Source: Streptomyces agglomeratus (lineage in GTDB: Bacteria; Actinomycetota; Actinomycetes; Streptomycetales; Streptomycetaceae). From it: 64,000 nucleotides of DNA. Positions 1,068 through 12,834 of this stretch are shown in pieces (the stretch's first letter is position 1; the number at the start of each line of letters is the position of its first letter). The notes under the pieces were generated by a model that saw only the letters and a program-made list of their open reading frames with translations, had not been told where the DNA came from and made no database searches. A program made the position numbers and the translations under genes. Where the stretch lies: NCBI RefSeq assembly GCF_001746415.1, contig NZ_MEHJ01000001.1, positions 744,001 to 808,000 on the forward strand, in the 5' to 3' direction.

Positions 1068-2255
1068 CTACCCGATCAGTTCTCCCGATGAGGTGACTTG
1101 AAAGGCCCGCCCGCGCACGGAGGCATCGGAGGTGTCCCCCTGGGCGCCCCCGCTGTCCGACCACGCGATGAACACGCTTTCGGCTCCGTCCCCGAAGGCC
1201 GCCGCGGCGCAGACCTGGGCACGGCCACCGGTCGTCGCCGAGCTGACCTGAACCTTCTCACTCAGCGAGAGCTGACTCTCAGAGCACATCTTCGCCATGA
1301 CGGTGGGGACGGTCTGGAAGGTGACGGCGCTCTTTTCCACCCAGGCCAGCAGGAAACGCCCACCCGGCATCGGGGCAAGCGCCGGCCACGACCGGTTGAA
1401 GTCGCGCGGCGGGCCTGCGATCACACTGGTGATGACCGAACCGTCACCGTTCGGGTCGAAGATGCTGGCTTCCACGGTGGTCTGTGAGACACCGAGATCG
1501 CTGGGGCCGATGCCCTCGATGTGCGCGATGACGAACTTCCCGGTATCGAGAAGGGTCAATGAGTTCCTGCCCTGGAAACCGGACACGTTGGGTTGGATCT
1601 CGCCTCCCCGGGGCGATCCGTCGAAATTGAACACCCTGTAGGTGAGCCGATTTCCTCCGATCGACGAGGGATCACTCGTCCATGCGACGACGTAGTTTCC
1701 GTTCGCCAGCACCGTCACCGCCGGGCTGTTGTGGAACCCTTCGGTGGTGTTGACCGTCATCTCAGGACCGGACTTGTTGCCTTCGATGGTGAAGCGTTGG
1801 GCGCGAATCCGCTGGTCCTGGCGTGCCCCCGTCCATACGACGACGCAGCCGCCGTCGATCAGGCGCGTCAAGGAAGGCCGGTTCGTCGGGTCGATGTCGG
1901 TGGTGCTGACCCGCACTTGAGGCCCAGCCGGTTGCCCGTCGAAGAATCTTTGCATTTTCACCTGCGGGAGGGGTGGCGGAATGTTGAAGGGTTGTTCCGT
2001 CCAGACGACGAACGAGCCCGAGCCCGAGAATTCCAGAGCCGGCCATTGCCGGTTCGCGTTGCCGTCCGATGGAGTCGGTGCGGCAACGGGGAACTCCTGC
2101 CCGACTTTGACCCCATCCGTATTCAAGGTCTGTCCCTTGATGCTGACGTCACTCCCATCCGCCCACATTGCCTCGTACTGCGTACCGCGCACTGAGTCGA
2201 CGCACGGTTGGGACTGACTGCCACTGGTTGTCGTGTTGATGAGAAGCTCACCCAT
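1068..2255 (-). CDS. seven-repeat beta-propeller-like protein, 395 aa
   Basis: The start at 2255 has a good GGAGG site at 2261-2266. The protein has no signal peptide. It contains seven imperfect repeats of about 45-55 residues, each with a core resembling PAL-x(4-8)-G-x-FVVAW followed by polar and RxxxFxxxG strands. Examples are SFVVWTEQ, GCVVVWTG, NYVVAWTSD, KFVIAHIEG, RFLLAWVEK and SVFIAWSDS. The extreme N-terminus (GELLINTTTSG) looks like the continuation of the truncated last repeat (FQVTSSGELIG), the velcro closure of a circular seven-bladed propeller. Molecular function is unknown. It is divergent from the MNIO locus and might belong to it as a binding or scaffold protein; this is inference. 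Confidence 0.6.
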   Translation of the reverse strand: MGELLINTTTSGSQSQPCVDSVRGTQYEAMWADGSDVSIKGQTLNTDGVKVGQEFPVAAPTPSDGNANRQWPALEFSGSGSFVVWTEQPFNIPPPLPQVKMQRFFDGQPAGPQVRVSTTDIDPTNRPSLTRLIDGGCVVVWTGARQDQRIRAQRFTIEGNKSGPEMTVNTTEGFHNSPAVTVLANGNYVVAWTSDPSSIGGNRLTYRVFNFDGSPRGGEIQPNVSGFQGRNSLTLLDTGKFVIAHIEGIGPSDLGVSQTTVEASIFDPNGDGSVITSVIAGPPRDFNRSWPALAPMPGGRFLLAWVEKSAVTFQTVPTVMAKMCSESQLSLSEKVQVSSATTGGRAQVCAAAAFGDGAESVFIAWSDSGGAQGDTSDASVRGRAFQVTSSGELIG

Positions 2256-2808: not shown

Positions 2809-3051
2809 ATGCCGAACGACGCGGTACGAGGGCCCCTTCCTGACCCATGGGAGCCGGTCACGATCACCGTCCCTGTGTCTGTGGCGAACAATCTCGACCA
2901 GATGCAGAACGTGATCAAGGAGGTGATGACGCAGTACGGGTGCAACACCTGCCACTCCGGAATCGACCTCAGGATCAAGATCGCCAGGGACTTCGTGGTC
3001 AACCCCGCTGGTGAGGTCTTCCAGGGCGTGGCCGTGCCGGTCAACCGGTAA
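2809..3051 (+). CDS. 80-aa CxxCH peptide, candidate substrate of the adjacent MNIO enzyme
   Basis: ATG at 2809 follows a GGAGG site (2797-2801). This start is preferred over in-frame upstream ATGs, which would add an Arg/Gly-rich low-complexity extension. The peptide has a Pro-rich N-terminus, a beta-prone ITVPVSVANN segment, a helical NLDQMQNVIKEVMTQYG, then GCNTCHSGIDLR (Cys45, Cys48, His49) and a beta-prone tail ending AVPVNR. CxxCH is the heme c motif, but there is no signal peptide, so a cytochrome is unlikely. It lies 6 nt upstream of the DUF692/MNIO gene. Known MNIO enzymes modify Cys-rich or Asp-containing precursor peptides, so a RiPP precursor or modified metal-binding protein is the leading hypothesis. 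Alternatively it could be a partner or assembly subunit. Confidence 0.6.
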   Translation: MPNDAVRGPLPDPWEPVTITVPVSVANNLDQMQNVIKEVMTQYGCNTCHSGIDLRIKIARDFVVNPAGEVFQGVAVPVNR

Positions 3052-3057
3052 CGGCCG

Positions 3058-4461
3058 ATGACGCAGCTCGGCGTGGGCCTCACCTACGTCCCCGGTCTCG
3101 ATCGGATCCTCGACGCCTGCGCCGATCTGCTGGAGGTCGTCGAGATCGAACCGCAGACCCTCTGGCGCATCCGGGCCGACGGCACGATCTCGACCGACGA
3201 GGAGGTGCTGCGCAGGCTGGCGGACCTGCCCGGAGGCCGACTACTGCACGGCGTCGGCAACCCCGTCGGCGGAAGCCGGCTCCCGGACCCCCGGAACACG
3301 GCGCTCGTCGGCGAACTCGCCGAGCGGCTCGGCGTGCCGTGGGTGAGCGAACACCTGGCGTTCAATCAGGTCGACGCCCGCGGCGAGAGTTTTCACACCG
3401 GCTTCATGCTGCCTCCGCGCCAGACGCCCGCCGGCGTCCGGTCCGCCGTCCGGTCGGTCCGGGCCATGGCCGAGGAGCTCCCCGTGCCCCTCGCAGTGGA
3501 GATCGGTGCCAACTACCTGCGACCCCGGAACGACGAACTGGCCGACGGCGCCTTCGTGCGCCAGGTGGCCGAGGGCAGTGGCTGCGGGCTGCTGCTCGAT
3601 CTACACAACGTGCTGACGAACCAGCGCAACGGCCGCGGCAGCGCGGACGAACTGATCGCGGCGCTGCCGCTGGACCGGGTCTGGGAGGTGCACCTCGCGG
3701 GTGGCCTCGACCATCGTGGCTACTGGCTGGACGCCCATCACGGCCTGCCCGACGAGGACCTCATGGCGCTCGCGGAACGGACTCTGCCCCTGCTGCCGGC
3801 CTTGCGCGCCGTATTGTTCGAAGTGACGCCGTCCGCCGTGCCGGAGCTGGACGCGCAGGCCGTCCGCACGGTGCTGACGCGACTGGACACGCTGTGGGAC
3901 CGCCCGGAGAAGCTTCCGCCCCTGTCCGTGCCCCGCCCGGCGCGGCACACCGAGGGTCCGGACGACGGCACCGCGTCTCCGGAGGACTGGGAGTACGCCC
4001 TCGGAAGCCTGGCCCTCGGACGCGAACCGGCCACTCCCTTGGACCGGGAACTGGCGGCCGACCCCGCCATCGGACTGCTCCGGGAACTCATCACCGAGGC
4101 CCGAGGGGGCTCCCTGGCCGGCGCCTTGCCCAACGCGATGCGCCTGCTGTTCCTCACCCTCGGCGCTGCGGGGTTGCGGGACGTCCTGGACGCGTACAGC
4201 AGCGCCGAAACACCCCGTCTGTTCGCCTCGGAGGAGGCATCCGCGTTCGCGCGTCACCTGAGCCGTGTACGTCCAGAAGTTCCATGGTTGGAGGACGTGC
4301 TGGCCCTCGACCTCGGACTCCTCCATGTCCGCCTCGAGGGCAGCCCCCGCACCGTCAGCCTCACCACCGACCCGAACGCCCTGCTCGCCGCCCTGGGCGC
4401 GGGCCGGCTCCCGGTCGCGCCTCCGCGGGGGGAGTTCCAGGTACACCTCGTCGACGGGTGA
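3058..4461 (+). CDS. DUF692 / MNIO-family multinuclear iron oxidase with C-terminal extension
   Basis: Residues 1-275 form a DUF692 TIM barrel. The expected ligand positions are visible: His64 (LLHGVG), His99 (WVSEHLAF), Glu148 (AVEIGANY), Asp181/His183 (LLDLHNV), His212 (EVHLAGG), Asp225/His227-228 (WLDAHHG) and Glu255 (LFEVTP). Family members (MbnB, TglH, ChrH, bufferin enzymes) are iron-dependent oxidases acting on Cys or other residues of ribosomal peptides, usually with a separate recognition partner. Here a further ~160 residues (about 305-467) follow, including an LEDVLALDLGLLHVRLEG region. I infer a fused recognition or partner domain. ATG at 3058 is 6 nt after the CxxCH peptide stop, with a weak ribosome site, so translational coupling is likely. 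Confidence 0.8.
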   Translation: MTQLGVGLTYVPGLDRILDACADLLEVVEIEPQTLWRIRADGTISTDEEVLRRLADLPGGRLLHGVGNPVGGSRLPDPRNTALVGELAERLGVPWVSEHLAFNQVDARGESFHTGFMLPPRQTPAGVRSAVRSVRAMAEELPVPLAVEIGANYLRPRNDELADGAFVRQVAEGSGCGLLLDLHNVLTNQRNGRGSADELIAALPLDRVWEVHLAGGLDHRGYWLDAHHGLPDEDLMALAERTLPLLPALRAVLFEVTPSAVPELDAQAVRTVLTRLDTLWDRPEKLPPLSVPRPARHTEGPDDGTASPEDWEYALGSLALGREPATPLDRELAADPAIGLLRELITEARGGSLAGALPNAMRLLFLTLGAAGLRDVLDAYSSAETPRLFASEEASAFARHLSRVRPEVPWLEDVLALDLGLLHVRLEGSPRTVSLTTDPNALLAALGAGRLPVAPPRGEFQVHLVDG

Positions 4462-4684
4462 GTCCGTGGAAAGACGGTAAGCCGCCGAGAGACGGTTCGT
4501 CCGAACCTGACGCCATGCGCCCGGCGGCCACAATTCCGAGTTGCGGCGCCCTGGTGCACGCACCTCGACCGCCCCGAACGGCGAGTCAGCAACCCTCGGA
4601 ATGTACCCCTGGGGCACGCTTCTCGGGGAAGAAATGAATCCGGGACTTTGACTCGCATCGAAAAAACATCGTGCAGGAGGCCGA

Positions 4685-5122
4685 ATGAACGCGACAGACT
4701 TGACCGGGACCTACACGTACCGAAGTTTCCACAACCGGCCGGAACTCGTCGACGACTTCAACAAGCTTTGGTTCGCACAGGCGGAGCTGAGGCTGGCCGT
4801 GGATTCGGCCGGAGCGATCAGCGGCGAGTTGGTGTTTCCCGCGGAGCCGGGCACCGAACCGCAATCCATGTACATCACCGGTAAGGTGTCGAACTCGTCG
4901 CCCGTGACCTTCACCTTGACGGGCAAAGGTCAGCCGGACACTTCCATCGCCGACTACCACTACGAGTACGACGGCATTGTCCTGCGCCACTGGGAAACCG
5001 GGGTGAATCAGCGCATGACGCTCGCCGGGACCGTGCTACGCGCGAAGGACCACGGAAGTGGCACCGCTGTGGCGCCGGCGGGCAAGACGGCCAGCTTCCT
5101 CGCGGTAAAGCGGGATGCCTGA
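4685..5122 (+). CDS. small beta-barrel-like protein, 145 aa
   Basis: ATG at 4685 follows a strong AGGAGG site. There is no signal peptide. The sequence alternates short hydrophobic strands and turns (LTGTYTYRSF, LRLAVDSAGAISGELVF, MYITGKVSN, VTFTLTGKG, YHYEYDGIVLRHW, MTLAGTVLRA, ASFLAVKRD), suggesting an eight-stranded lipocalin/avidin-like barrel. The pyoverdine tyrosinase PvdP carries an N-terminal streptavidin-like barrel before its tyrosinase domain. The next gene is tyrosinase-like and lacks one, so this may be the separately encoded barrel. That link is inference. It lies 223 nt after the MNIO gene on the same strand. Confidence 0.55.
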   Translation: MNATDLTGTYTYRSFHNRPELVDDFNKLWFAQAELRLAVDSAGAISGELVFPAEPGTEPQSMYITGKVSNSSPVTFTLTGKGQPDTSIADYHYEYDGIVLRHWETGVNQRMTLAGTVLRAKDHGSGTAVAPAGKTASFLAVKRDA

Positions 5123-5136
5123 CACGTCTGTGACGG

Positions 5137-5170
5137 AGCCCGCCCGGACGCTGCGCGCCGGGCGGGCTTT
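5137..5170. terminator. bidirectional rho-independent-type hairpin
   Basis: A perfect 11-bp stem (AGCCCGCCCGG at 5137-5147 with CCGGGCGGGCT at 5158-5168) and a 10-nt loop, followed by a short T run. It sits between the convergent barrel and tyrosinase-like genes and can serve both. Confidence 0.75.
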
Positions 5171-5191
5171 CCACGCGGGCGCGCCACGCGG

Positions 5192-6145
5192 TCAGGTCAG
5201 CCGAACGTCCCTGGAGATGAAGAAGGGGGCGGGTTCATGAACCCCGGCCCGCTTCACGTGCTCGACCGTCGCTTCCAGGGCGCGGAGGCGCGAGTCCAGG
5301 TAGTCGGCCTCGGCGCTGCCCGGCTGAGCCCGCACGGCGAGTCGGGCCACAGGGTGATGAGGGTCGTGCCCGTGGTGCCCCGCGGGACCGCTCCACGGAG
5401 GGTCGAAACTCCACGGGACGGCCCCCGTCAGTTCGTTGGCCGCCATCCAGTCGTCGATCCGGGCGTCCACCCAGCCGTGAAGCTTCCAGAAGATCGGGTT
5501 GACATGAGAGGAGTAGAAGTCGGCCATCCAGTCGTAGCCGGCGTCGTCCCATCGAGGGTCGACGTTGAAGTAATCCTTGTCCGGCCGGTAGCCGGGCATT
5601 TCGGCTGACCAGCGCAGGTGCATCGTGTTGTGGATGGTGTACTCGACCAGGGCGCCGAGACGGCCGAGTGACATTCCCCGCAGCCTCGCCGGGTCCGTGA
5701 ATTTCGACTCCCAGTCACGGATCTGGGCGAATGACTCCGGGCTCTTGGCACCGCGGATGTCCTCGGTTGTCACCAGGACACCGATCGGGACATCGAACGG
5801 GGGCGGGACCGGGTACTCACTGTCTTCCGGAGCGGGAACGGTCGGCCATCCCTCCACCCGTACATGCTGGGGATCACCCAGCTCGGCAAGTATGTCGTTG
5901 ACTGCGGCGATCATCTCCCGGTGCATGAACAGGAAATCCTCACCAGAACCATTTTCAAGTTCTATGGCCCGAGGGGGAGCCGATATTGACGGGCGCGGCG
6001 GTTCCCAGCCGTGGTGGCGGAGCACCTCCTGCTGTTCCGGCGTCATAATCGCCCAGTCGTCGCGGGCGGTGTGCCACAGCAAGTGGTGCAGGCGCACAGC
6101 TCGGTCGGCCATGGCGTCGATCACGGGCTTGGGCAATGCGGTCAT
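5192..6145 (-). CDS. tyrosinase-like type-3 dicopper protein, 317 aa
   Basis: ATG at 6145 has an AGGAGG site at 6155-6160. Type-3 copper features are visible. HREM at His75 matches the CuA HR(x)xL element. EYTIHNTMH (His172, His176) matches the first two CuB ligands. HVNPIFWKLHGWVDARIDDW matches the DPxFxxHHxxxDR element, with His223 as third CuB ligand and His214 nearby. His20/21/25 are candidates for the remaining CuA ligands. The resemblance is to the PvdP-like branch, which oxidises peptide-bound phenols, rather than to the MelC2 tyrosinase. There is no signal peptide and no MelC1-type caddie gene; the neighbouring barrel protein could act in its place. It is convergent with the MNIO operon. 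The substrate is unknown. Confidence 0.7.
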   Translation of the reverse strand: MTALPKPVIDAMADRAVRLHHLLWHTARDDWAIMTPEQQEVLRHHGWEPPRPSISAPPRAIELENGSGEDFLFMHREMIAAVNDILAELGDPQHVRVEGWPTVPAPEDSEYPVPPPFDVPIGVLVTTEDIRGAKSPESFAQIRDWESKFTDPARLRGMSLGRLGALVEYTIHNTMHLRWSAEMPGYRPDKDYFNVDPRWDDAGYDWMADFYSSHVNPIFWKLHGWVDARIDDWMAANELTGAVPWSFDPPWSGPAGHHGHDPHHPVARLAVRAQPGSAEADYLDSRLRALEATVEHVKRAGVHEPAPFFISRDVRLT

Positions 6146-8270: not shown

Positions 8271-8381
8271 ATGAAGAAGGCTTACGAAGCACCGACGCTC
8301 GCCCGGCTGGGGACGTTCCGTAAGAAGACGGGACTCCTCCAGAGTTCCGGCAACGACCGGCTGATCCTGAGCAAGAACTGA
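8271..8381 (+). CDS. citrulassin-family lasso peptide precursor (A), 36 aa
   Basis: A 36-codon gene with an AGGAGAGG site just upstream. The leader has the conserved lasso recognition motif YEAPTLARLG and Thr at core position -2 (KKTG). The predicted core is LLQSSGNDRLILSKN (8334-8378), closed by a Leu1-Asp8 isopeptide bond into an eight-residue ring, with tail RLILSKN. It closely matches the published citrulassin A core (LLGLAGNDRLVLSKN), whose Arg9 is converted to citrulline by a peptidylarginine deiminase encoded elsewhere. Arg9 is present here. No deiminase gene is seen in the window, so the product may be the des-citrulline or citrulline form depending on the rest of the genome. Confidence 0.92.
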   Translation: MKKAYEAPTLARLGTFRKKTGLLQSSGNDRLILSKN

Positions 8382-8406
8382 CGGCTGACGGTTCTGATCC
8401 GACGCC

Positions 8407-10263
8407 ATGACTGAACTGCACGAGAGTGCGGGGGCGGGCCCCGGCGACGCGCACTTCACGGTCTTCACCGACTGTCAGGACGCGGCCGCCGTGGCCCGCT
8501 CCCTCTCCCATCCCCGAGCACGAACCCTGAAGCACCCCTCGGGCCGGCCCTGGCTCGTCGGGCAGTGGCACGACCAGGAGATCACCACCGCGCGTGCCGG
8601 CCACGCCGCGCTCGCCGTCATCGGCACGTGCCCCATCGACTCGGCGGAGCTCGAACGCCATGCCGGGCGCCTGCGCGATCTCGCCGGACTCGACGCCCTG
8701 GCCCGCTCCCTGCCGGGCAGCTTCCATCTCGTCGCCGCGCTCGACGGACGGCTCAGGATCCAGGGGACCGCTTCCGGTCTCCGGCTGGTCTTCCACGCTC
8801 CCGTCAGCGGGGTCCAGGTGGCTGCCACCAGTGCTGAGGTACTGGCCGCCGCGCTCGGCGCCGAGCCGGACGAGGAGCAGCTGGCTGTCCGGCTGCTGTG
8901 GCCCGTTCCCCATCCACTCGCCGAGACCCCCATGTGGCGGGGCATCACCGCCGTGTCCCCGCATGACGCACTCGTCGTCTCGGCGGACGGGCGGACCGTG
9001 CGCCACTCCCGCTGGTGGACGCCGCCGGAGCCGGTACGCACGCTCGCCGACGGCGCGCCCCTCGTCCGCGAAGCGCTCGCCGAGGCCGTCGATGCCCGTA
9101 CGCGGCAGGGCGGTGTGGTCAGTTGCGATCTCTCCGGCGGACTGGACTCCACCTCCGTCTGTTTTCTCGCCGCGCGATCGCCGGCCCGGGTGGTGGCGAG
9201 CACCTGGCCCGGACGCGATCCCGCCGACACCGACCTGTACTGGGCCGAACAGGCCGCCCGGTCCCTGCCGGACGTCGAGCACGTCGTCTGGGACGCCGAT
9301 GCCTCACCGCTCGTCTACAGCGGCCTGCTCGGCATCGACGACCTGTTGGACGAACCGACCATCGGCGTCATGGACCGGTCACGCGTCCTGCACCACCTGC
9401 CCGGACTGGCCGAGCGCGGCAGCCGACTGCACCTTACCGGCATCGGCGGTGACCACGTGGCCTGGTGCTCGGAGGCGTACTACCACCGGCTGCTGCGCAC
9501 CCGGCCGCTGTTCGCCCTGGGCCGGCTGCGCGGCTTCCGGGCGCTGTGGCAGTGGCCGGTCGGAGACGTGGCGCGTGCGCTGGCCGACTCGCGGCCGTAC
9601 GGTAAGTGGCTGGCCGACTCCAGCGGTCGCCTGCGCGACCCGCTGGCCTCCACCGTCCGCACCAGCCTCGGGTGGGGCATGCCGCCCCGTCTCTTCGGCT
9701 GGGTCACTCCCGACGCTGAGCAGATGGCCCGGCGGGCGCTGCGCGAGGCCGCGGCGAAGGCGGTCCCGCTACACCCGGATCGTGGCCTGCACACCGATCT
9801 CGAACAGATCCTCGCGTGTACGCGCATCATCCGTCAGTGGGACCGTATGGCGGCCCGGGCCGGGGTGCCGATGGCGTCACCGTTCCTCGACGACCGTGTG
9901 ATCGAGGCATGCCTCGCGGTCCGTCCGGGCGAGCGGGTGACTCCCTGGGCGTACAAGCCCCTCCTGACCGCCGCCATGAGCGGGATCGTGCCCGATGCGT
10001 GTCTGCGACGTACCAACAAGGCCGCCGCGTCCATGGACGCCTCCAACGGTTTGCGCGAACACCGAGCGGACCTGCTGCGGCTCTGGGAAGACTCGCGGCT
10101 GGAGCAACTCGGTCTGGTGGACGGCGCAGCCCTGCGCCGGCTTGCCCAGCGGCCGGCCACCCCCGAACTGCGCGACGCGATCCTCTACTCGACCATCGCC
10201 GCCGAGGTGTGGTTGCGCGGACTCAGCCGCTCCCCCGGCCCCAGGGCGCCGGCCGCCCGATGA
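8407..10263 (+). CDS. lasso macrolactam synthetase (C), asparagine-synthetase-like
   Basis: This 618-residue protein has an N-terminal glutaminase-like region without the nucleophilic Cys (it starts MTELHES), typical of lasso cyclases. An asparagine-synthetase domain follows, with the ATP-pyrophosphatase motif SGGLDSTS at 243-250. Later features are TGIGGDH, FLDDRVIEA and a KPLL segment. It activates the Asp8 side chain of the core by adenylation and forms the Leu1-Asp8 macrolactam. It begins 25 nt after the precursor stop and precedes the RRE gene, giving the order A-C-B1-B2-D found in actinobacterial lasso clusters. Confidence 0.92.
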   Translation: MTELHESAGAGPGDAHFTVFTDCQDAAAVARSLSHPRARTLKHPSGRPWLVGQWHDQEITTARAGHAALAVIGTCPIDSAELERHAGRLRDLAGLDALARSLPGSFHLVAALDGRLRIQGTASGLRLVFHAPVSGVQVAATSAEVLAAALGAEPDEEQLAVRLLWPVPHPLAETPMWRGITAVSPHDALVVSADGRTVRHSRWWTPPEPVRTLADGAPLVREALAEAVDARTRQGGVVSCDLSGGLDSTSVCFLAARSPARVVASTWPGRDPADTDLYWAEQAARSLPDVEHVVWDADASPLVYSGLLGIDDLLDEPTIGVMDRSRVLHHLPGLAERGSRLHLTGIGGDHVAWCSEAYYHRLLRTRPLFALGRLRGFRALWQWPVGDVARALADSRPYGKWLADSSGRLRDPLASTVRTSLGWGMPPRLFGWVTPDAEQMARRALREAAAKAVPLHPDRGLHTDLEQILACTRIIRQWDRMAARAGVPMASPFLDDRVIEACLAVRPGERVTPWAYKPLLTAAMSGIVPDACLRRTNKAAASMDASNGLREHRADLLRLWEDSRLEQLGLVDGAALRRLAQRPATPELRDAILYSTIAAEVWLRGLSRSPGPRAPAAR

Positions 10264-10292
10264 CGACAGTTCCTCAGCGGAAAGGCACACGC

Positions 10293-10547
10293 ATGGCATT
10301 GAAATTCGGCGCCAATGTCTCCACTGCCGAGACCGACTACGGCACTGTTCTTCTCGATGAACGGGCCGGGGAATACTGGGAATTGAATCCCACGGGCACG
10401 CTGGTCGTCCGTACGCTCATGGCGGGTGGTGACGAAGCGGACGCGGTGGCCGCACTCACCGAAGAATTCGACATCAGTGCTTCGAGGGCGAAGCAGGATG
10501 TCGACGCCCTCGTACGGCAACTGCGGACCTCGGGGCTGGCCGAATGA
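10293..10547 (+). CDS. lasso leader-recognition protein (B1), PqqD-like RRE
   Basis: An 84-residue PqqD-fold RiPP recognition element: an N-terminal beta wing (LDERAGEYWELNPTGTLVVRTL) and C-terminal helices (ADAVAALTEEFDISASRAKQDVDALVRQLRTSGLAE). It binds the YxxPxL leader motif and delivers the precursor to the peptidase and cyclase. The start at 10293 is chosen from length and the AAAGG-type site. Its stop overlaps the next ATG by ATGA, implying coupled translation of B1 and B2. Confidence 0.9.
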   Translation: MALKFGANVSTAETDYGTVLLDERAGEYWELNPTGTLVVRTLMAGGDEADAVAALTEEFDISASRAKQDVDALVRQLRTSGLAE

Positions 10548-10978
10548 CGACGCCGAGCGCACTGGAGCGGCCCACCGGAGTGCCCTTCGCGCGACGACTG
10601 GCCGCCCGTCTCGTTCTGCTCCCCGCGGTCGCTCTGTCCTTCCTGCCGCCACGGCGGATCCGCGTTGTACTCGGTGTCGTCCGTGGCCGGGCCAGGCCGG
10701 CCACCGCCGCCGAGGCCAAACGCGCGCGGGATGCCATGTGCGCGGTGAGCCTGCGCTGCGCCGGCCCCAAGGGCTGCCTGCCCCGTTCGTTGGGCGCCGC
10801 CCTTCTGTGCCGCGTCTCGGGAACATGGCCGACCTGGTGCACCGGGGTACGCGTGGTGCCGCCGTTCACGGCACACGCCTGGATCGAGGCGGACGGCCGG
10901 CCCGTGGACGAAGGCGTACCGGACGACTATTTCACTCGGCTGATGACGGTCACCCCGGCGGACCGATCGGGCCGATGA
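10544..10978 (+). CDS. lasso leader peptidase (B2), transglutaminase-like
   Basis: A 144-residue Cys protease of the lasso B2 family. It has a catalytic Cys78 in GPKGCLPRSLGAALLCR, His111 in FTAHAWIEADG, and an Asp shortly after (Asp117 or Asp122). It cleaves the leader after Gly21 of the precursor, in concert with the RRE protein. A hydrophobic N-terminal segment (LAARLVLLPAVALSFLPP) is common in the family. It overlaps the genes on both sides by 4 nt. Confidence 0.9.
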   Translation: MTTPSALERPTGVPFARRLAARLVLLPAVALSFLPPRRIRVVLGVVRGRARPATAAEAKRARDAMCAVSLRCAGPKGCLPRSLGAALLCRVSGTWPTWCTGVRVVPPFTAHAWIEADGRPVDEGVPDDYFTRLMTVTPADRSGR

Positions 10979-12834
10979 CCGGCACCGTCGTGGAGCAGGC
11001 GCAGCCGGCGGCCGAAGGCGACCGCTCGACGCGGGCCGCGGTCGCCACCATGTACCGGCTCACCACCGGGCACCGGTCTTCGGTCGCCGTCGCCACCGTG
11101 CTCACTCTGGTGGGCTCCGCTCTGGGCCTCGCTCAGCCGCTCGTCGCCAAGCATGTCGTGGACGCGAGCGGCCGGGGGCAGGTGTTGTGGCCGCTGTTGC
11201 TGCTGCTCGCGGTGCTGTTCGTCACCGAGGCGGCGACGGGTGCGGTGGGCCGCTTCGTACTGGAGCGCATGGGCGAAGGCGTCGTACGAGGGCTGCGCCA
11301 CGGCCTGGTGGGGCGGCTGCTCCGGCTGGAGATGAGGGAGTACGACCGGCACCGCAGCGGTGACCTCGTCTCCCGGGTCACCGCGGACACCACCCTGCTG
11401 CGGGAAGTCGTGTCCCAGGCGCTGGTCGATCTGGTGACGGGGGCTCTCGTCGCGGCGGGCGCGATCGTCCTCATGATCTGGATCGACCCGCTGCTGCTGC
11501 TCCTGGTCGCTCTGACCGTGGCCGCCGCCGCCATGATCGTTGCCTCACTGCTCAAGGGCATCCGGGTCGCGTCAGAACGTATGCAGAACTCCGTGGGCGC
11601 GATCGCCGCAGAGCTGGAACGCGCCCTCGGCGCGCTCCCGATGGTCCGGGTCCACCGCGCCGAGGACCGTGAAGCGGCCCGCATCGGAGAGCGCGTCGAA
11701 GCGGCCTACGACGCCGGTGTACGGACCGCGAAGCTCGCCTCCGTCATGAGCCCGGCCGTCGAACTCGCCGTCCAGGGCTCCTTCCTGATCGTCCTGGTGA
11801 TCGGCGGCCTGCGGGTGAACGGGCAGGCCAACTCACTCGGCGACCTGGTGGCCTTCCTGCTGTACGCCTCGTACCTGGTGCTGCCGTTGTCGTCGGTCTT
11901 CCGCGCGGTCGGTCTCATCCAGCGCGGCATGGGCGCCTACCAGCGCGTCGAGCAGGCACTGTCCCTGCCGGCGGAGCCCTCCGCGGAGAAGCCGGCTGTC
12001 CGGGCGCGTACGCGCGAACCGGCCAGGCATGTCGCCTCGCGCGAGGAGCCCGTCCTCGCCCTGCGGGACCTCTGCTTCGGCTACACGCCGGGCCGGCCGG
12101 TGCTGCGGGGCCTGTCCTTCACCGTCGCACACCGGCAGCAGGTCGCCCTGGTCGGCCGGTCGGGTGCCGGAAAGAGCACGGTCTTCGCCCTCATTGCCAG
12201 GTTCTACGAACCGGACTCCGGAACCCTGTTGTTCGACGGCCTTCCCACCACGGGACTGAGCCGCGCGGCCTGCCGTGAACGCATCGCCGTCGTCGACCAG
12301 AACACCCACGTCGTCCATGGCACGCTGCGGGACAACATCACCTACGCCGTTCCCGACGCCACCGAGGCCGATGTGCGGCGCGTCGTCGAGCTCGCCCAGC
12401 TCGACGGGGTCGTACGACGGCTGCCGGGTGGCCTGTCGGGTGTGCTCGGCGAACGCGGCGGCACCCTCTCGGCAGGAGAACGTCAGCGCGTCGCCCTGGC
12501 CCGCGCGCTGCTCGCCCGCCCCGCTCTCCTCCTGCTCGACGAGCCCACCTCCCACCTCGACACGATCAACGAAACCGCGCTCACCACCGTGATGAGGGAC
12601 GTCGCCCAGGAGTGCTCCGTTCTGGTCATCGCGCACCGACTCTCCACGGTCCAGCACGCCGACCGCATCGTCGTACTGGAGGACGGCCGCACCGCCGCCT
12701 GCGGACAGCACCAGGACCTGCTCACCAGCAGCCCCGCCTACCGCGAGCTGGCCGCCGGGCAGATGCTCCGCCCGGCCGGCGCGCGGGCCTCAGCCGTCGC
12801 GACCACCCCGATCCACCCCCGGCACCGGCCGTGA
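10975..12834 (+). CDS. lasso peptide ABC exporter (D), fused permease-ATPase
   Basis: This 619-residue half-transporter has six predicted membrane helices in the first ~320 residues and a nucleotide-binding domain. The motifs are Walker A GRSGAGKST (394-402), signature LSAGERQ (498-504), Walker B LLLLDEPTS and a switch His in VIAHRLSTV. It should export the mature lasso peptide and provide self-immunity. The ATG at 10975 overlaps the B2 stop (ATGA) and is preferred over the much longer open frame upstream, which only reads antisense-like through B1 and B2. It is the last gene of the operon. Confidence 0.9.
   Translation: MTGTVVEQAQPAAEGDRSTRAAVATMYRLTTGHRSSVAVATVLTLVGSALGLAQPLVAKHVVDASGRGQVLWPLLLLLAVLFVTEAATGAVGRFVLERMGEGVVRGLRHGLVGRLLRLEMREYDRHRSGDLVSRVTADTTLLREVVSQALVDLVTGALVAAGAIVLMIWIDPLLLLLVALTVAAAAMIVASLLKGIRVASERMQNSVGAIAAELERALGALPMVRVHRAEDREAARIGERVEAAYDAGVRTAKLASVMSPAVELAVQGSFLIVLVIGGLRVNGQANSLGDLVAFLLYASYLVLPLSSVFRAVGLIQRGMGAYQRVEQALSLPAEPSAEKPAVRARTREPARHVASREEPVLALRDLCFGYTPGRPVLRGLSFTVAHRQQVALVGRSGAGKSTVFALIARFYEPDSGTLLFDGLPTTGLSRAACRERIAVVDQNTHVVHGTLRDNITYAVPDATEADVRRVVELAQLDGVVRRLPGGLSGVLGERGGTLSAGERQRVALARALLARPALLLLDEPTSHLDTINETALTTVMRDVAQECSVLVIAHRLSTVQHADRIVVLEDGRTAACGQHQDLLTSSPAYRELAAGQMLRPAGARASAVATTPIHPRHRP

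Follow-up and report, generated by a model that had tools for sequence, protein, structure and literature searches.

A peptide–MNIO gene pair beside a putative split PvdP-type tyrosinase in Streptomyces agglomeratus

Do adjacent genes that combine a small cysteine-motif peptide with an iron enzyme and a copper enzyme constitute one modification system, or two units that lie side by side? The question is raised by a locus of Streptomyces agglomeratus, analysed here within a stretch of 64,000 nucleotides (nt) referred to as the window; all coordinates are window positions, and G000 denotes the window's own genome. An earlier note, made from the letters of the locus alone, had joined an 80-residue peptide, an enzyme of the MNIO (DUF692) family, a barrel-like protein and a PvdP-like tyrosinase into a single candidate system, in which iron and then copper chemistry would act in turn on one ribosomal substrate. 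On the sequence comparisons reported below, we lean towards two neighbouring, independent units, i.e., a peptide that would be a cytosolic substrate of the MNIO, and a split PvdP-type enzyme. The features under discussion are the following.

2809..3051, plus strand: 80-residue cysteine-motif peptide (GCNTCHSG, C45/C48), probable MNIO substrate (family, motif conservation, MNIO frame downstream in 5/5 loci)
3058..3930, plus strand: MNIO (MbnB/TglH/ChrH) catalytic domain, approximately residues 1–290 of 467 (PF05114, TglH match)
3979..4461, plus strand: C-terminal extra domain of the MNIO, residues 308–467 plus stop, possible built-in partner or recognition domain (common to five cognate MNIOs)
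4685..5122, plus strand: streptavidin-like barrel encoded by a gene of its own, equivalent to the N-terminal domain in fused PvdP-like tyrosinases (blastp, AlphaFold2, Foldseek/VIA)
5192..6145, minus strand: PvdP-like type-3 copper protein, tyrosinase domain only (NF051454, PvdP structures, His motifs)
1068..2255, minus strand: 395-residue repeat protein, possible beta-propeller, divergent neighbour (with peptide and MNIO in 2/5 loci)

The peptide open reading frame (ORF; 2809–3048, stop codon 3049–3051) is preceded by a Shine-Dalgarno-like GGAGGA and is followed, after 6 nt, by the ATG at 3058 of the MNIO ORF (3058–4458, 467 residues). The barrel ORF (4685–5119, 145 residues) starts 223 nt past the MNIO stop, and the tyrosinase ORF (5195–6145, minus strand, 317 residues) converges on it, the gene ends being 69 nt apart. 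Because of the 223-nt gap and the opposite orientation of the tyrosinase gene, neither of which the earlier note mentions, only the peptide and MNIO genes, rather than all four, look like a single operon; a promoter and terminator scan of the locus gave nothing informative.

The peptide and its MNIO

The first line of evidence for a peptide–MNIO unit is the pairing of the two genes. In all five readable loci, i.e., the window and loci of four other genomes of its phylum (G228, G303, G730 and G768), two of which fall outside its class, the peptide gene is followed directly on its 3' side by an MNIO frame that carries the same additional C-terminal domain. The junction is a 6-nt gap in the window and in G303, a 13-nt gap in G228, and an overlapping GTGA in G768; in G730 the frame homologous to the MNIO is already open ahead of the peptide stop, and a CTG overlapping that stop (CTGA) is the likeliest start, unless the sequence is imperfect. 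The pairing is kept outside the class, where MNIO identity is 41–44%. In our opinion, peptide and MNIO probably represent an uncharacterised protein-modification unit that recurs in distant bacteria.

The MNIO itself matches PF05114 (DUF692; E 2.3e-34, 119.3 bits, cut-off 25) and the DUF692 protein TglH (8hci/8hi7; E 1.6e-14). The segments around WVSEH, AVEIGANYL, DLHN, HLAGG and DAHH, which we take to be the metal-ligand motifs, align with TglH (8hci). The enzyme scores below the NCBIfam equivalog cut-offs for Bufferin (95.5 of 310 bits, NF050167), HvfB (66.4 of 360), ApyH (88.5 of 400) and ChrH (38.1 of 600). Some MNIO is present in 66 of 296 class genomes; the window's cognate enzyme aside, all of these score at most 96.4 bits and mostly match in the catalytic domain only.

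The second line of evidence is the conservation of the peptide motif. The window peptide carries GCNTCHSG, with its two Cys, at residues 44–51, and its one Tyr, Y43, adjoins the motif. It has no match in Pfam or NCBIfam, neither of which holds a model of the family, and 41 members scanned singly against both gave nothing better than E 0.0077. A profile search of a protein database yielded 207 family proteins at E ≤ 1, among which P0001 and P0004 are probably the window's own peptide or near-identical to it. The motif statistics refer to the best 120 of the 207, and invariance to 41 aligned members. Wherever an organism is named among the best 120, it is Streptomyces or Kitasatospora. G44, C48, S50 and G51 are invariant, and the family motif is G-C-x-x-C-x-S-G; one motif unit is found in 108 proteins, two in 10, and none in 2, one of which, P0218, has Asn in place of G44. 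Across the 128 motif units, Cys occupies position 45 in 119 and His in the other 9, Cys48 is followed by His in 82 and by another residue in 46, Ser stands at position 50 in every unit, and Tyr at position 43 in only 4. The G303 peptide, which reads GHPSCHSG, shows that the first Cys can be replaced. The G730 peptide has two units, GHPACATG and GCAACCSG, the former with Thr for Ser50. A zinc-ribbon reading of the peptide was rejected on the Pfam/NCBIfam scans of members and the motif statistics.

The peptide was found in 1 of 100 relatives (its own genome), in 3 of 392 genus genomes (G000, G228 and G303), and in 3 of 296 phylum genomes including its own, the other two being G730 and G768, outside the class. 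The genus count was 8 before weak matches in G007, G130, G198, G339 and G362 and at a second G303 site (E 2.6e-4 to 8.3e-4) were dropped because their loci hold no ORF of at least 60 residues with C..CH; in three of the six contexts, read more widely (L030–L032), the weak matches lie opposite longer ORFs predicted by a crude gene caller. It should be noted that this gene caller was a GC-based script that errs in some of its calls, and that the assessment of neighbouring genes relied chiefly on BLAST and on reading. Family members had no match on plasmids, and P0165 had no relative among viral contigs. One further family member, P0234 (122 residues, from a 533-bp contig), joins the N-terminal half of the peptide, as judged by eye, to the apparent C-terminal end of the MNIO extra domain; it is either a natural deletion or an assembly artefact, and hints that the peptide and MNIO genes are neighbours elsewhere as well.

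There is no strong hydrophobic leader in the window peptide (best 12-residue mean hydropathy 1.18, by a simple window and no dedicated signal-peptide predictor). AlphaFold2 models a strand, a helix, the motif loop and further strands, and the model has no match among PDB folds (best E 0.63). Thus, the ORF coordinates, PF05114 and the hydropathy window agree with the earlier description of a GCNTCHSG peptide that is encoded 6 nt before a DUF692/MNIO gene and shows no signal peptide.

A C-terminal domain of about 160 residues is common to all five cognate MNIOs; its profile has no match in Pfam or among PDB sequences. The same profile was searched against 776 ORFs of at least 70 residues from 40 loci that had been picked for MNIOs, so that the search favours matches to MNIO-adjoining genes. 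The best match is a 179-residue gene product directly after the MNIO in G094 (L038; E 7.2e-5), then the gene that follows the MNIO of L039 (E 0.08, over short segments) and, weakly, a DUF2063 partner after the MNIO in L072 (E 0.15, aligning LRSSFPALRHLLGHEAFDVLAAGYVEAVPPSSYT). A separate DUF2063 (PME-type 1) partner gene was not found in G000, which has no PF09836 match and has the extra MNIO domain instead; none of 118 class genomes has a PF09836 match, and among 21 relatives only 1 has. MNIOs with partners other than DUF2063 have been described, so that a missing DUF2063 partner is compatible with MNIO membership (PMC12452194). With weak to moderate confidence, the extra domain may be regarded as a fused partner protein of the DUF2063/RRE-like kind.

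The tyrosinase and the barrel protein

The tyrosinase matches the NCBIfam model tyrosinase_PvdP (NF051454) with E 4.5e-38 and 131 bits, below the cut-off of 625, and the PvdP structures in the PDB with E 1.2e-31; with Pfam Tyrosinase it scores 20.4 bits, just under the cut-off of 22.6. Its His motifs comprise H20/H21/H25, H75, H172/H176, H214 and H223. These matches agree with the PvdP-like type-3 copper protein of the earlier note. PvdP itself acts on the way to pyoverdine, where it hydroxylates and oxidises ferribactin, a non-ribosomal peptide (PMC6206403).

The barrel protein has no family in Pfam or NCBIfam. By blastp it matches the N-termini of fused PvdP-like proteins (E 3e-12 to 1e-20), and its AlphaFold2 model (predicted local distance difference test, pLDDT, 92) has its best Foldseek matches in streptavidin and avidin, the fold being of the avidin type (Foldseek/VIA). 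PvdP is not among the best 50 rows of the fold searches, and was not found among PDB sequences with barrel profile A2. The proposal that the 145-residue protein is a PvdP-type barrel supplied as a separate gene is borne out by these sequence and fold matches. Tyrosinase and barrel appear, from sequence, to be a split PvdP-type enzyme, whose parts would work together.

Beyond the compared genomes, the barrel was found in 105 plasmid records, many of them near-identical. In the 16 plasmid loci that were read, a tyrosinase lies in the flanks of 13 (12 by tblastn, 1 by annotation) and a multicopper oxidase in those of 14, and none has a match to the window MNIO or peptide. Outside the window, the companions of the barrel are other tyrosinases, multicopper oxidases and, in one case, a LodA oxidase. 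In a Rhizobium ruizarguesonis plasmid (L119:1-5546) the barrel gene overlaps a LodA/GoxA-type oxidase gene and a FAD oxidoreductase gene, and adjoins a tyrosinase gene. Three Rhizobium plasmids (L114–L116) have the barrel beside a multicopper oxidase without a tyrosinase, and an annotated avidin/streptavidin family gene about 2 kb from the barrel. In P0087 (254 residues) the barrel is fused behind a domain without a Pfam match.

One system or two units

The distribution of the parts was compared in 13 genomes, a limited sample in which each genome was picked for holding at least one part. MNIO, tyrosinase, barrel and 395-residue protein were tested directly in all 13, while the peptide was taken from the genus and phylum searches; G203, G209, G258, G344, G251, G101 and G163 are presumed to be in the peptide search sample, on the identical sampling of another search. 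Full-length MNIO matches occur in exactly the five peptide-bearing genomes (G000, G228, G303, G730 and G768), and the other eight have partial matches of about E 1e-24 or weaker (best 6.8e-25). The tyrosinase is present in G000, G009, G203, G258, G344 and G209. The barrel is present in G000 and G251, fused in G209 and G344, and fragmentary in G009, G101 and G163. Neither tyrosinase nor barrel was found in the other four peptide–MNIO genomes, and in the other five tyrosinase genomes there is neither the cognate MNIO nor a peptide match among those listed. Both units meet in G000 only, i.e., in 0 of the 12 other genomes. What remains of the modification system proposed earlier is the recurring peptide–MNIO pair; the single four-gene system is not supported, its genes co-occurring in 1 of 13 genomes of this limited, part-selected sample. 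Lack of co-occurrence is what the earlier note had named as refuting its proposal, and on this sample it applies to the four-gene claim. Since the units were not found together in any other compared genome, sequential iron-then-copper chemistry on one substrate is unsupported. Literature searches found no paper joining MNIO, tyrosinase and ribosomally synthesised and post-translationally modified peptides; MNIO with CHSG retrieved only unrelated papers among the matches listed, and tyrosinase with "streptavidin-like" retrieved nothing related.

The 395-residue protein, which has no family in Pfam or NCBIfam, occurs in 4 of the 13 genomes. Its repeated V-V-x-W-like motifs, seen by eye, suggest a beta-propeller. 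It is a loosely shared neighbour, because it accompanies peptide and MNIO in G228 (a homologue 53–56% identical, 5' of the peptide; L028:8750-10081), stands without them in G344 (about 56% identical; L106:5182-6357), and has left a remnant near the tyrosinase in G009; it is absent from G303, G730 and G768.

Several observations weigh against the reading as two units, or against parts of it. The G009 remnant points to some linkage of the units, as does Streptomyces sp. CA-252508, in which a single contig carries both a peptide (ACQI4E_27725) and, far from it by locus tag, a barrel (ACQI4E_28880). The tyrosinase is often without a barrel: in seven loci (close relatives at ≥57%, window included), the barrel is intact in 2, a fragment in 1, and was not found in 4. 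The best Foldseek match of the barrel has E 8e-3, none being under 0.001. In the peptide–MNIO unit, the partner role of the C-terminal domain is drawn from weak profile matches, the peptide model is of moderate confidence (pLDDT 73) and has no fold match, one of the two G730 motifs reads CATG rather than CxSG, and no ATG, GTG or TTG precedes the conserved part of the MNIO frame in G730, which leaves the start of that frame uncertain.

Successive action of MNIO and tyrosinase on the same peptide, with assistance from the barrel, is suggested by the placement of all genes within 3.4 kb, by Y43 next to the motif, and by the G009 remnant. Against this stand the separation of the units in the other 12 genomes, the opposite strand of the tyrosinase gene, the scarcity of Tyr at position 43 and the company that the barrel keeps with other oxidases, and we deem sequential action highly improbable. 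It is also improbable, though less so, that the MNIO modifies another substrate and that the peptide is linked to it for regulatory or chance reasons: only five loci are readable, but the pairing persists outside the class, with abutting or overlapping frames, in spite of the low MNIO identity.

A more serious alternative, which we nevertheless consider rather unlikely, is that the peptide serves the MNIO as a small accessory protein that delivers metal or iron, or as a binding subunit, and is not its substrate. CxxC-type motifs can bind metals, the predicted strand-helix-loop-strands fold is not that of an unstructured core, and tandem two-unit versions exist. However, His can stand in for the first Cys, the residue that follows Cys48 is variable, and proposed precursor genes precede the MNIO gene, while partner genes, where present, most often follow it (PMC12452194, Table 2). 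The remaining reading, a c-type cytochrome fragment with a CxxCH haem site, rests on the CNTCH of the window peptide and is barely credible. It was rejected because CxxCH is not conserved (of 128 units, 46 lack the His and 9 lack the first Cys); moreover, no signal peptide is seen, the window peptide has no Pfam/NCBIfam match, and just one of 41 members matches Cytochrom_C552 (E 0.055).

Proposed mechanism, precedents and surrounding genes

Under the two-unit reading, the 80-residue protein would be modified in the cytosol by the MNIO whose gene starts 6 nt downstream. The C-terminal domain of the MNIO, as a putative fused partner of RRE-like type, would hold the peptide by its strand and helix, so that the G-C-x-x-C-x-S-G loop faces the multi-iron site; there, O2 would oxidise a cysteine, most likely Cys48, to a thiooxazole-like or other oxidised cysteine. 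Cysteine oxidation is the best guess because the invariant Cys48 sits in the C-x-S-G loop; known MNIO chemistry on Cys includes oxazolone-thioamide formation, carbon excision and 5-thiooxazole formation (PMC13174530, PMC13097082). The product would probably be a small metal-binding or redox protein that remains intracellular. A cytosolic product is suggested by the lack of a signal peptide and of a protease or exporter beside the pair, none being recognised on reading the neighbouring ORFs, which were not searched family by family. In the second unit, the dicopper tyrosinase with its separate barrel protein would act on a phenol.

A broader proposal, which we offer tentatively as a joint statement and consider possible rather than probable, is that a minimal, widespread two-gene system exists, in which an MNIO with its own recognition domain oxidises the G-C/H-x-x-C-x-S-G loop of a small folded cytosolic protein, and that tyrosinases, multicopper oxidases and quinone-cofactor oxidases share the streptavidin-like barrel as a general companion that can be detached. 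If true, the former would create a metal or redox site of a new, post-translational kind and not a secreted peptide. The observations on the barrel place the PvdP barrel in an evolutionary setting, as an oxidase companion that can move. MNIOs keep giving new peptide chemistry, with substrate finding as the bottleneck, and a likely substrate and its enzyme are named here. Natural variation outlines the target loop, in which Cys48, Ser50 and Gly51 are nearly always kept and Cys45 can be His, and the need for only two genes makes the system directly testable.

The putative adjamnio-IV precursors of PMC12452194, the only paper in which a literature search found "adjamnio", share with the window the precursor–MNIO organisation with no partner listed. 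They are described as having 119–146 residues, 5–6 Cys and CxxCC. Ten tandem homologues of the peptide (131–143 residues) all fall in that length range, 9 of 10 have 5–6 Cys and 6 of 10 have CxxCC, whereas the window peptide, a single 80-residue unit with two Cys, lies outside these descriptors; the peptide family would thus partly overlap adjamnio-IV, as judged from the description in that source. By description, too, adjamnio-7 putative precursors resemble the peptide in having no signal peptide, a CxxC motif and a position beside an MNIO, the model shown being from Novilysobacter (PMC12452194). The nearest precedent for a built-in partner appears, by analogy, to be MovX, likened here by description, an MNIO whose own winged-helix domain may take the place of a partner; its precursor and cluster are different (PMC12452194). 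In bufferins and captophorins (thiooxazole), an MNIO likewise acts on Cys-motif peptides (PMC12452194, PMC13097082). Bufferins, however, have Sec signal peptides and DUF2063-RRE partners (PMC12452194), whereas the window peptide shows no hydrophobic leader by the simple hydropathy window and the window MNIO misses the NF050167 cut-off. With PvdP (6eys, 6rrp) the window shares a homologous tyrosinase domain and the barrel-plus-tyrosinase composition, the barrel being that of fused PvdP-like proteins, here encoded separately and on the opposite strand; the tyrosinase is far below the NCBIfam PvdP cut-off, and the likeness is one of sequence.

A lasso peptide cluster lies at 8271–12834 on the plus strand, a few kb from the peptide–MNIO pair, and has its own protease and transporter. 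Its 36-residue precursor, MKKAYEAPTLARLGTFRKKTGLLQSSGNDRLILSKN, scores over the lasso_leader_L3 cut-off; the macrolactam cyclase reaches 251 bits (cut-off 300), a PqqD-type chaperone and a B2 protein are over their cut-offs, and an ABC transporter is present. This lasso peptide was rejected as a tyrosinase substrate, its only Tyr being residue 5, in the leader. Finally, a SUKH_6 (SMI1/KNR4-type) protein, of a family frequently linked to toxin immunity, is encoded at 303–950 on the minus strand.

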